Assembly: GCF_008326305.1 (NCBI RefSeq)
Contig: NZ_BIXY01000041.1
Span: forward strand, 1 to 57,159
DNA: 57,159 nucleotides
Source: Dictyobacter arantiisoli
GTDB lineage: Bacteria; Chloroflexota; Ktedonobacteria; Ktedonobacterales; Ktedonobacteraceae
Direction of reading: 5' to 3'
Part shown: positions 10,380-55,858 of the stretch, in pieces
Numbering within the stretch: the stretch's first letter is position 1
How the letters are laid out: the number at the start of each line of letters is the position of its first letter
Position numbers and translations under genes: made by a program
Notes under the pieces: model-generated
The model's input: only the letters and a program-made list of their open reading frames with translations
Database searches by the model: none
Told to the model about the DNA's origin: nothing

Positions 10380-10588
10380 ACAAGGTGGATGTTTGATACC
10401 CATGATCTTCGCCATGCTGGCGCATGAGTTTTCGCACCTACGGTGCTCAAAACAGTTTTTAGGATGTGGTGCAGGAAAGGTGCTGTGCACCTTTCCTGCA
10501 CCACATCCTAAAAAGGGCGCAGGCGCGCAAGCGCCTGCCAGTGAGTCAGCAGCAAGATCCCGATGGTGATGGGAATCAAATACTTTGT
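10380..10588 (+). repeat. Dispersed hairpin repeat, copy 1
   Basis: A 209-bp element immediately behind pheT. It begins near ACAAGG (10380) and TTTGATACCCAT and ends with ATGGGAATCAAATACTTTGT, giving terminal inverted repeats of about 12 matching bases. Inside are three hairpins: a small GCACC/GGTGC one (10436-10446), a perfect 28-bp stem with TGT loop (10456-10483 / 10487-10514), and a GC-rich GGCGC/GCGCC-type one (about 10516-10542). Related copies are at 20985, 35857 and 55667. It lies inside the pheST 3' untranslated region, ahead of the terminator. Confidence 0.85.
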
Positions 10589-10637
10589 AAAAAGGATCGT
10601 AGCAGTAAAAGGATCTTTACCGCTACGATCCTTTTTA
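10589..10637. terminator. Bidirectional terminator behind pheST
   Basis: An inverted repeat with arms AAAAAGGATCGTAGC and GCTACGATCCTTTTT. A second smaller pair (GTAAA/TTTAC) lies inside. The 3' arm ends in a T-run, fitting rho-independent termination of pheST; the A-rich 5' arm gives the same on the other strand. Confidence 0.8.
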
Positions 10638-10747
10638 CTGATCTCTTTCGTTGCTACCTGTCTTATAGTCATAATGAGAACATACCCTTTATGGCTATAG
10701 AAAGAAGATATGAGCATTGGGGATCTTGAAAATTGTTTATAATTTAT

Positions 10748-20947: not shown

Positions 20948-20984
20948 AAATAGAGAATACTCTGGCACATGGATTTTTCTGCTA

Positions 20985-21189
20985 AGAATGTGTCAGACTC
21001 CCTGTATCATCGGGATCTTGCTGCTCCCTGGCTGGCAGGCGCGTGCGCGCCTGCGCCCTTTTTAGTGTGTGGTGTAGAAAAGGTGCTATGCACCTTTTCT
21101 ACACCACACACTAAAAACAGTTTTGAGCACCGCAGGTGCGAAAACTCATGCACCAGGATGGCGAAGACCATGGGAATCAAACACTTTGT
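20985..21189 (-). repeat. Dispersed hairpin repeat, copy 2
   Basis: A 205-bp element in reverse orientation relative to copy 1. The right end is ATGGGAATCAAACACTTTGT (to 21189); the left end AGAATGTGTC...TCCC is a diverged inverted counterpart, also seen in copy 4. It contains a GC-rich hairpin (about 21035-21058), a perfect 28-bp stem with TAT loop (21059-21086 / 21090-21117) and the small GCACC/GGTGC hairpin (about 21128-21140). Confidence 0.85.
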
Positions 21190-21238
21190 AATAGTGAACG
21201 CATAGGTTTGGCGAAAAGAAGGATACATCTTTCATTCT

Positions 21239-35856: not shown

Positions 35857-36105
35857 ACAAAGTGTTTGATTCCCATCACCAGCGGGATCTTGCTGCTCAC
35901 CTGCTGGCAGGCGCAGGCGCGCCTGCACCACACACTAAACATGAGTTTTCGCACCTGCGGTGCTCAAACAGATTTTTATTATGTGATGTAGAAAAGGTTC
36001 GAAGAACCTTTTCTACATCACATAATAAAAAGGGCGCAGGCGCGCACGCGCCTGCCAGCCAAGGAGCAGCAAGATCCCGCTGGTATTGGGAGGCTGACAC
36101 TTTGT
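35857..36105 (+). repeat. Dispersed hairpin repeat, copy 3 (composite)
   Basis: A 249-bp copy. The left end ACAAAGTGTTTGATTCCCAT and the right end CACTTTGT form an inverted pair. Both sides carry the AGCGGGATCTTGCTGCT-type subterminal sequence, and the left part stops in CACCACACACTAAA, which is the 3' arm of a copy-2-like stem. It then resumes with GAGTTTTCGCACC. It thus looks like a fusion of two copies. The complete part has the GCACC/GGTGC hairpin, a perfect 28-bp stem with GAA loop (35973-36000 / 36004-36031) and the GC-rich hairpin (about 36033-36056). Confidence 0.8.
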
Positions 36106-36610: not shown

Positions 36611-38617
36611 GTGATCAAGTGTAACCGTTGTGGAAAGATGACCCCCGCTGGCGCATTTTGTCAGTCGTGTGGTACGCCGCTCGCTGGCATGTCAGAAAAC
36701 GGTTCGGCCGCTAAAGCAGGGTATCAGGACCAACCAGAACTGCCTGCCTGGCTGGAGTCGTTGCGTGCAGGAGAACGTCCTGCCCCCCCTACCAATAATT
36801 CAGTGAGTTTCTCGCCGGCCGATCTTATCGAAGAAGGATCGCTCCCAAATTGGATGCGTGCCGAGCGTGGTGATCAGCGTGATAATACCTCCGCTAATCC
36901 CGCTACCTCTGCACGTCCCGCTAGTTTTTCCGATCAGGTCTACAGTGGAGATGCTGCGGCTCCTACGAGTATTCCTGCCCAATCGCTGGTTGATGAAAAT
37001 TCATTGCCTTCCTGGATGAAAGAAGGGAAGCAAGCTGCGAATAATACTCCAGTAGATTCAGAACCGGGTAATCTTTCTGCTGCCAGTCTGGTACAGCCAG
37101 ATAGTCTTCCAGATTGGATGAAGACGCTACAGCAACCTTCTGGCATTCGACCTGGTGTGGTACCTGCACCTGTAAATACAAATACAAATTCTGCTCCACA
37201 GCAAGTAACCCCATCCGCTCCGCTTGCCTCACCGCCGGTTTCATCATTGAGCAATGGTTTGGCGGCACGCGATCTGATTGATCAAGAGTCGTTGCCATCA
37301 TGGATGCAATCCCAGAATGAGCAGTCCTCTAACACTGGGAGCATGCAACCGGCACAAACGGGACAGGGTGTCCCTCTTGTCGGGCAAACAGGTTTCTCTG
37401 CCTCTTCTCTTTTGGAGGTTGATGCAATCCCTCAATGGTTACGTGAAGGGGGACAGAATTCCGGTCAGTATCCAAAATTAACTGCCAATGCAGCGCCTGC
37501 GCAGAATACCGGGTGGCCTGGCATGGGTCAGGCGGCACCTGCCTGGCCTGCTGGAGCCAATACCGGACAGCCGCCGATGCAAACTCCACCAGTCAATGCG
37601 GCACCGCCCCAGGCAGGTGGCCCCTTTGCTGCCTCATCTTTAATTGATGCAAATGCGCTTCCTTCGTGGTTACGTGATCAGCAAGCTGGCATGTCGGCTC
37701 CTCAACCTGGAATGACCCCCGGCGGGCGCCCTGCTGCCAGCCCGATTCCGCCCCGTGGAGAGAATATCCGTGTTCCCAGTCGGCCACGTGGGGAAGCTAA
37801 TCCTACTGAAAGTAGTGAACTGGCAGCCAATGTGTTTGCATCCATGTTAGGCGTAGCCTCAGCGGTCCCTAATTATCCAGATGCGCAACAAGAACAAAAC
37901 AGTAGCGCAGCCCAGGCGAATGCCTATGGTCAGATGGGTCAGTCAGGACAACAGGCGAATGCCTATGGTCAGATGGGTCAGTCAGGACAACAGGCGAATG
38001 CCTATGGTCAGATGGGTCAGTCAGGACAACAGGCGAATGCCTATGGTCAGATGGGTCAGCCCAATCTAGCGGGACAGGCGAACAGTTACGGGCAGCCAGC
38101 ACAAAGCGATCCATCATATGGATATGAATTGCTAGCTCAGGGGAATCCCGCCTATGGTTACGGTCAAATGGGTCAGCCAGATCTGTCAGGACAGGGCAAC
38201 GCCTATGAGCAGATAGGGCAGGCAAATGGCTATGGGCTGTCAGACCAAGCCAATTTGAATGGGCTTCCCAATGCTGGTGCCATGCCCAACACTCCTTCAG
38301 GGATGAGCGGCGTTTTCCCACAGAATTATGGTGCAGGGAACAGCATGTCTGGTACCTATGGCACAAATTATCCTGGTAATGCCCAGGGCCAGATGAACTC
38401 TGCATTGGGTGCGAATGCTTCGATTGGTGGAAACAACTCAATGGGGAATAATCTTTCCATGAACGGGAACCCCACGATGAGTGGTACGTCTCCTTTCGGA
38501 GGCAATGCAATGACGAATGCATCCGCAGCATCATCAACTCCTGATAATGCTGGCGATCAGAAAAACACCAGGAAACGTAATATGTTTGACATGATACGCG
38601 AGTGGATTTCTCGTTAA
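36611..38617 (+). CDS. Zinc-ribbon protein with six LPxW[ML] motifs and repeats
   Basis: A soluble-looking protein of 668 residues. The N-terminal zinc ribbon (Cys4-x2-Cys7 and Cys18-x2-Cys21) is followed by ELPAWLESL. Six short linear motifs of the pattern (S/D)L(I/V/L)xxxx(L/I)PxW(M/L) are spaced along about residues 70-360 by Pro/Gln/Asn-rich linkers: SLPNWM, SLPSWM, SLPDWM, SLPSWM, AIPQWL and ALPSWL. A 13-residue NAYGQMGQSGQQA unit is then repeated almost four times, before an Asn/Gly/Met-rich region and the end RKRNMFDMIREWISR, which could be an amphipathic helix. It starts with GTG. No enzyme domain was recognised; it may be a scaffold whose motifs bind a partner. First gene of a three-gene operon. 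Confidence 0.75.
   Translation: MIKCNRCGKMTPAGAFCQSCGTPLAGMSENGSAAKAGYQDQPELPAWLESLRAGERPAPPTNNSVSFSPADLIEEGSLPNWMRAERGDQRDNTSANPATSARPASFSDQVYSGDAAAPTSIPAQSLVDENSLPSWMKEGKQAANNTPVDSEPGNLSAASLVQPDSLPDWMKTLQQPSGIRPGVVPAPVNTNTNSAPQQVTPSAPLASPPVSSLSNGLAARDLIDQESLPSWMQSQNEQSSNTGSMQPAQTGQGVPLVGQTGFSASSLLEVDAIPQWLREGGQNSGQYPKLTANAAPAQNTGWPGMGQAAPAWPAGANTGQPPMQTPPVNAAPPQAGGPFAASSLIDANALPSWLRDQQAGMSAPQPGMTPGGRPAASPIPPRGENIRVPSRPRGEANPTESSELAANVFASMLGVASAVPNYPDAQQEQNSSAAQANAYGQMGQSGQQANAYGQMGQSGQQANAYGQMGQSGQQANAYGQMGQPNLAGQANSYGQPAQSDPSYGYELLAQGNPAYGYGQMGQPDLSGQGNAYEQIGQANGYGLSDQANLNGLPNAGAMPNTPSGMSGVFPQNYGAGNSMSGTYGTNYPGNAQGQMNSALGANASIGGNNSMGNNLSMNGNPTMSGTSPFGGNAMTNASAASSTPDNAGDQKNTRKRNMFDMIREWISR
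37913..38059 (+). repeat. 39-bp tandem repeat inside the zinc-ribbon gene
   Basis: Three identical or nearly identical 39-bp units and a fourth of 30 bp, starting at 37913, 37952, 37991 and 38030. Each encodes 13 residues. The lack of divergence implies recent expansion or gene conversion. Confidence 0.95.
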
Positions 38618-43649: not shown

Positions 43650-44723
43650 ATGGACAACAAACTTTCGGAATCCATGATGGGGATGGTGCGCAAGGGGGGT
43701 ATGGCGGCATTTGTAGCCTTCTGTCTGCTTGTGTTTACAGCCACCGCAGCATTTGCCGCTTCCGTCAACATTTATGATAGTGCGAATGTGCTCAATCGGT
43801 CCCAGGTACAGAATGCTGCTTCATCGTTATCAAAGCCGATCGATATTTACAGCATTACAAGCAGTTTATCGAATGCGGCCTTTGATCAGCAGGCCAAACA
43901 ATCTGCGAGCCGTAACTCCAACTTGATTGTGCTGGCATTTAATAGCCACCACGTAGCGATTACGGGAGGCAAGAATACCGGACTCTCCCGTGGTCAGTTT
44001 CAAGACGCTACGAATGCCTTTTTAAATGCAGTAAACCGTGGTGGCAGTAGAGATTATACTGGCGCTACAATAGCAGCTATTAATTCTCTTCATGACGCGC
44101 TAGGTGGAAGCTCTGCATCTTCATTTCTGCCAGGGGTAGGTGGTGGAGCAGGGCGCTCGTTTGGCAGTACTTTGTGTTGTGTGGGATTGATAGCTCTGCT
44201 CATTATTGGTGCTATCGCCTTTGCGCGTACCCGTGCCCGTCGTCGCGGCTTATTCAACCGTTCAGCGGGCTTTGGTCAGCAGCCCTATAATCAGGGAGGG
44301 CCTTTCAATCAAAACCAGGGAAACTATCCCCCGAATTATCAGGGCAATTACCCGCCGAACTATCAAGGAAACTATCCCCCCAACTATCAGGGACCGTATC
44401 CACCTCAGAATCAGGGCATGAATCCTCTGGCGGCAGGTGGACTTGGTGCTGCTGCAGGTGGCTTGTTTGGCTATGAATTGGGAAAGAATGCCGGCGAGCG
44501 CGACCGCGATCAAGATGAAGGCTTTGGTGGCGGTTCCAGCGGAGATTTTGGGAATGGTGGAGATGGTGGCTTTGGGGGAGATAATGGCGGAGACTTTGGA
44601 GGAGGAGCAAGCGGAGATTTCGGAGGAGGCGGTGGAGATAGTGGTTTCGGTGGTGGTGACGGAGGATTTGGTGGAGGTGGTGGAGATGGTGGCTTTGGTG
44701 GCGGCTCCAGCGGCGACTTCTAA
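43650..44723 (+). CDS. TPM-domain protein with Gly-rich C-terminus
   Basis: A protein of about 357 residues. A signal peptide (about 14-38, ending TAAFAA) is followed by a TPM (TLP18.3/Psb32/MOLO-1) domain at about 40-150 (VNIYDSANVLNRSQVQNAAS, NLIVLAFNSHHVAITGG, FQDATNAFLNAV). A membrane segment lies at about 173-193 with an Arg-rich stop-transfer (RTRARRRG). NYPPNYQG units are repeated three times (about 226-250), then a hydrophobic GAAAGGLFGYELG helix and a Gly/Asp/Phe-rich tail of about 75 residues follow. The tail resembles secreted TPM proteins ending in GGGxSGxF. Start 43650 has GAGGAAGG 6 nt upstream. Function unknown; likely envelope protein maintenance. Confidence 0.85.
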   Translation: MDNKLSESMMGMVRKGGMAAFVAFCLLVFTATAAFAASVNIYDSANVLNRSQVQNAASSLSKPIDIYSITSSLSNAAFDQQAKQSASRNSNLIVLAFNSHHVAITGGKNTGLSRGQFQDATNAFLNAVNRGGSRDYTGATIAAINSLHDALGGSSASSFLPGVGGGAGRSFGSTLCCVGLIALLIIGAIAFARTRARRRGLFNRSAGFGQQPYNQGGPFNQNQGNYPPNYQGNYPPNYQGNYPPNYQGPYPPQNQGMNPLAAGGLGAAAGGLFGYELGKNAGERDRDQDEGFGGGSSGDFGNGGDGGFGGDNGGDFGGGASGDFGGGGGDSGFGGGDGGFGGGGGDGGFGGGSSGDF

Positions 44724-55666: not shown

Positions 55667-55858
55667 AGAATGTGTCGGAATCCCAGGATCATCGGGATCT
55701 TACTGCTGACTTGCTGGCAGGCGCGTAAGCACTTGCGCTCTTTTTATTGTATGTTGCTGTAAATGTGCTATGCATATTTACAGCAACATACAATAAAAAT
55801 TGGTTTGAGCACCGTAGGTGCGAAAATTCATAGGCCAGGATGGCGGGGACTCTCATAG
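55667..55858 (-). repeat. Dispersed hairpin repeat, copy 4
   Basis: A 192-bp diverged copy in the orientation of copy 2. It starts at AGAATGTGTC...TCCC. Inside are a worn GC-rich hairpin (about 55718-55740), a 28-bp stem with TAT loop and one G-T pair (55741-55768 / 55772-55799), and GCACC/GGTGC (about 55809-55820). The right end has lost the ATGGGAATCAAA sequence. It fills the gap between two convergent genes. Confidence 0.8.

Follow-up and report, generated by a model that had tools for sequence, protein, structure and literature searches.

Introduction

MITEs of the IS5/IS1031-like kind are characterised by TNA target duplications. Covariation between the two sides of a stem is conventionally taken as proof that an RNA fold is functional. 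Paired changes can also arise at the DNA level. Template switching between the arms of short inverted repeats in yeast homogenises the arms and inverts the spacers (PMC8604942). The same process has been suggested as a means by which RNA hairpins persist with compensatory changes (PMC8794818), and in the mitochondria of Nematomorpha the arms of perfect coding palindromes evolve in concert (PMC6649704).

Here we analyse a repeat family of Dictyobacter arantiisoli, whose genome assembly comprises 7.2 Mb in 256 contigs. The window is one of these contigs, 57,159 nt in length. An earlier note, made from the letters of the window, had described four copies of a repeat with a central 28-bp hairpin and proposed that covariation of its arms implies selection for the fold. 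The note had not recognised the repeat as a described family, and this was borne out by the absence of an Rfam match and of a named family in the literature searched: none of the titles found on Ktedonobacteria or Dictyobacter repeats treats it, and a search on double-hairpin elements returned nothing useful.

Copies of the repeat in the window

All four copies were found in the window, and the stem of each was located:

10385..10587, − strand: element copy 1, about 203 bp, MITE-like, from sequence and BLAST match to copy 2
10456..10514, − strand: central hairpin of copy 1, 28 bp, perfect; loop TGT on the + strand, ACA when oriented
20986..21188, + strand: element copy 2, 203 bp; TAA/TAA flanks at 20983-20985 and 21189-21191
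21059..21117, + strand: central hairpin of copy 2, 28 bp, perfect; loop TAT
35858..36104, − strand: element copy 3, 247-bp composite; TGA/TGA flanks
35973..36031, − strand: central hairpin of copy 3, 28 bp, perfect; loop GAA on the + strand, TTC when oriented
55668..55850, + strand: element copy 4, right terminal repeat unrecognisable, right end approximate
55741..55799, + strand: central hairpin of copy 4, 27 of 28 positions paired; loop TAT

A 28-bp stem that starts with TTTTTA and closes on a 3-nt loop is present in all four copies, three of which are paired at 28/28 positions, and the single G-T pair reported for copy 4 was seen. In the window copies, changes on one arm are matched on the opposite arm, as the note had stated. 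Copies 1 and 2 are oppositely oriented and share 88% identity over positions 24-199 (BLAST); copy 1 has a degenerate left terminal repeat and no matching 3-bp duplication. Copy 3 holds an additional partial copy with a half-hairpin remnant at about 35923-35937. The central hairpin was rejected as an intrinsic terminator, because its foot (TTTTTA...TAAAAA) is the reverse of the A-stem-U arrangement. A separate, terminator-like 23-bp hairpin (GTAAAAAGGATCGTAGC...) abuts copy 1 at 10587-10638. Elsewhere in the window, tandem repeats of 39 nt (37913-38098) and 24 nt (44292-44411) lie within long ORFs that probably encode low-complexity proteins.

Anatomy, mobility and distribution of the family

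BLAST detected several dozen copies in the genome, and a covariance model built from just the hairpin matched at least about 78 places, with 150 candidates scored. From the D. arantiisoli genome 89 hairpins were extracted, 63 of them perfectly paired, and 86 were oriented after filtering. Of the four congeners, three have homologous hairpins (G001, G003 and G004, the last being Dictyobacter kobayashii Uno11), as do three genomes from a second genus within the family, whereas 16 genomes from other families of the order have none. The D. kobayashii genome consists of two contigs and contains the same hairpins and inverted loops, which rules out an artefact of short-read assembly. Tandem pairs of elements, a few bases apart, are frequent (in the D. 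arantiisoli genome, C33:44168-44563, C96:28401-28796, C148:131-516 and C7:23365-23618).

The modal length of the element is 203 bp (35 of 67 cases). Imperfect terminal inverted repeats of about 17 bp, paired at a distance of about 200 bp, have a sequence close to SANNGTGTTTGATTCCC. Exact 3-bp direct repeats, mostly TNA, flank 42 of the 67 elements, compared with a mean of 9.1 and a maximum of 21 in shuffled pairs. With the GC-rich side to the left, the order is terminal repeat, a short hairpin of GGCGC type, the 28-bp hairpin, a short GCACC-NNN-GGTGC hairpin and terminal repeat; the element has no long ORF of its own. Copies are mostly intergenic, and neighbouring genes show no preferred orientation (15 tandem, 7 divergent, 6 convergent). 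Short, non-coding and multi-copy, with terminal inverted repeats and target duplications, the repeats form a MITE-like, non-autonomous family, and the proposal of a dispersed mobile repeat family is supported.

The TNA target preference of the IS1031 group of IS5 resembles that of the family, and the element would presumably be mobilised in trans by a DDE transposase with an IS5/IS1031-like target habit. Among 20 terminal-repeat loci of the fragmented D. arantiisoli genome, no autonomous partner was found, all being short elements, and DDE_Tnp_4 was absent. A 1.7-kb candidate partner in a congener (L243) turned out to be a distinct IS that has ends of its own and is seated inside the element.

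A 1580-bp IS4-like element (DDE_Tnp_1, ends TATGAGTCATCCCGAATTTT) lies inside the MITE exactly at the usual site of the hairpin, which is gone, in three of seven insertions examined in G001 (L258, L262, L274) and in one of two contig-end copies in D. arantiisoli (L264). Relatives of this IS (ends CATGAGACATCCC) are found in G003 within short A+T-rich palindromes, the halves of which flank the IS (L259, L263, L273, L277); this suggests that they target palindromes.

Pairing and covariation of the central hairpin

The 68 distinct hairpins of D. arantiisoli were used to measure covariation. Overall, 98.7% of their cells were paired, and the arms covaried, with changes on both sides, at 20 of the 28 pairs. 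The covariation score was 0.332, compared with 0.105 in shuffled sets (0 of 500) and at most 0.077 when the partners were slid. Covariation over tens of copies is therefore real and statistically strong. Pairs changed on both sides fall into at least two dozen distinct types, about half of which require transversions on both sides. The stems form one homologous sequence family, as opposed to a set of unrelated sequences, and the invariance of some positions (e.g. T12, A21 and A23) hints at an additional sequence constraint.

A sampling bias toward paired stems was addressed with elements picked by their terminal repeats alone, in which the hairpin was perfect, nearly so, or lost altogether; the bias persists in the counts from relatives given below. 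The number of mismatches per hairpin, 0.37, is not far below the expectation for recent mutation alone, because singletons per copy are few.

Marks of probable copying between the arms

On a minimum spanning tree of the 68 distinct hairpins, 70 changes affected both arms and 32 were one-sided, numbers that do not represent independent events because recombination blurs the trees of the copies. The corresponding counts were 157 versus 8 in D. kobayashii and 47 versus 1 in another congener, both from samples picked for pairing. Mirrored double changes comprised 37 transitions and 33 transversions, a ratio indistinguishable from that of the flanks (301:286; Fisher P 0.90). Compensation through G-U intermediates would yield almost only transitions, so these transversion-rich doubles argue against an RNA origin. 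Only 5 of 1904 cells were G-U, and the two mismatch types were nearly equal in number (G-T 10, A-C 7).

The loops carry a second mark. For 18 of the 19 loop triplets, the reverse complement also occurs in the set, compared with a mean of 8.6 in random sets, of which 1 in 20000 reached 18. Two copies (L052 and L056) with identical 116-nt flanks and an identical stem have the loops TAT and ATA, and another pair (L057 and L119), with three flank differences, has TTC and GAA. Where two copies are closest in their flanks (0 to 3 differences per 116 nt), the stems are identical or near-identical, and in most such pairs the loop is inverted. D. kobayashii provides the inverted pairs TGT/ACA, TCC/GGA and TGG/CCA in its two-contig genome.

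The short hairpins of the same element served as an internal control. The adjacent 5-bp hairpin, which also has a 3-nt loop, showed only one-sided stem changes over 76 copies, and none of its seven loop types was accompanied by its reverse complement. A 7-bp hairpin was intermediate, with some inverted loops (TTGC 14, GCAA 4). The effect thus grows with stem length, as expected from fold-back of DNA.

In each of two copies (L106, L091) an indel is likewise mirrored in both arms. In D. kobayashii, palindromes of 40-48 bp (L136, L163) have arisen because the reverse complement of the left flank has taken the place of the inner right flank. Two hairpins (L116 and L112) have arms from different alleles; in a third (L102), the arms come from two alleles and the flank is identical on either side. 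Judging from these mosaics, recombination between copies is acting as well. In one D. kobayashii copy (L142), a hairpin arm has turned into a tandem array of units of about 32 nt beside an intact hairpin.

Origin of the covariation

As a whole, these results led us to propose, with a probability of roughly 0.7, that the family is a MITE-like element whose long central palindrome stays perfect mainly through DNA-level copying from arm to arm, that is, template switching. A polymerase engaged in replication or repair would meet the hairpin, and the nascent strand would fold back or jump to the other strand, so that one arm could serve as the template for the other. A mutation in a single arm would then be either erased or mirrored, jumps between strands would invert the 3-nt loop, and recombination among dispersed copies would shuffle the resulting stem alleles. 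We infer a mechanism at the replication fork, with copying mostly in place as opposed to around transposition; given the few singletons per copy, correction could also act mainly at or before transposition. Every mark described above would follow from template switching between the arms; mutational spectrum, loop inversion and internal control point to DNA copying, so that no RNA function is needed to account for the covariation.

Selection at the DNA level was considered as an alternative, in which the transposase or the host requires a perfect hairpin, only perfect parents spread, and mirroring reflects two mutations in unselected copies. The hairpin is either perfect, or nearly so, or lost, and it is retained both among the congeners and in a second genus of the family, which is in line with this explanation. 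Taken alone, however, it leaves loop inversion, mirrored indels, the transversion share and the flank-invading palindromes unexplained, and elements that lack the hairpin still bear terminal repeats, some with target duplications; we consider it unlikely. Selection on the fold, or against mismatched hairpins, could nevertheless operate in addition to the copying.

It is also rather improbable that the element actively rebuilds its hairpin, for example by fold-back synthesis at each transposition, in a manner like a rolling hairpin with flip and flop loops. If so, both arms of each new copy would derive from one arm, a life cycle undescribed for MITEs bounded by terminal inverted repeats.

Selection for the RNA fold of a transcribed hairpin, acting as a small RNA or transcript stabiliser, would make the mirrored changes classical compensatory mutations. 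Strong pair covariation and the mainly intergenic location of the copies fit this explanation, and as RNA the entire element folds far better than its shuffles (z -9.2). However, G-U intermediates are scarce and A-C mismatches are about as frequent as G-T, transversions are as common among the double changes as in the flanks, RNA selection does not explain loop inversion, and covariation is absent from the 5-bp hairpin that the element also carries. Gene orientation shows no preference, an Rfam scan of the window matched rRNA and tRNA only, leaving the repeat unmatched, and it is implausible that selection would act on more than 80 copies scattered in this way. An RNA function is thus very unlikely to account for the family, and the step that the earlier note took from covariation to selection for the fold is not supported.

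The note had further suggested a mobile element cut as a single-stranded hairpin, but movement by a Y1/TnpA-REP transposase is strongly disfavoured and hardly credible: the palindromes are dispersed and Y1 transposases are present in these genomes, yet a family hairpin flanks none of the 15 Y1 loci examined, the stem foot has no GTAG-type tag, and the terminal repeats and 3-bp duplications are instead of the cut-and-paste type.

These findings have consequences beyond this family, which shows strong covariation while the evidence points to DNA copying. Present in several genomes at dozens of copies each, the family constitutes a natural test set for measuring how much covariation mutation can generate by itself, and it is a warning for covariance-based discovery of RNAs in repeats.

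Comparison with known systems

Each ingredient, MITEs and template switching, is already known, and it is their combination at such a scale that looks undescribed; the literature searched contained no mobile-element family showing the process across dozens of copies with a short-hairpin control. Bacterial MITEs with TNA duplications are likewise short, non-coding and present in many copies, with terminal inverted repeats and a 3-bp TNA duplication. The family differs from them in its long, perfect internal palindrome with co-evolving arms, and in that an autonomous partner was not found. REP and REPIN sequences with TnpA-REP share the dispersed intergenic palindromes, but the family has no association with RAYT and no tag, and its mobility is by terminal inverted repeats and target site duplications.

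The palindromes of Nematomorpha share the concerted evolution of arms and the paired substitutions; unlike the family, they lie in organelle coding genes, with no mobile element and no dispersed copies (PMC6649704). The RNA hairpins attributed to template switching share multi-base compensatory changes without intermediates and an occasional loop inversion (PMC8794818). Those hairpins belong to genes under RNA selection, in which loop inversions are very rare, whereas in the family inversion is common and an RNA role is not evident. The yeast inverted repeats have both signatures in common with the family, namely identical arms and an inverted spacer, but they are scattered single loci in genes (PMC8604942), whereas here the signatures are carried by dozens of dispersed copies of a mobile element.
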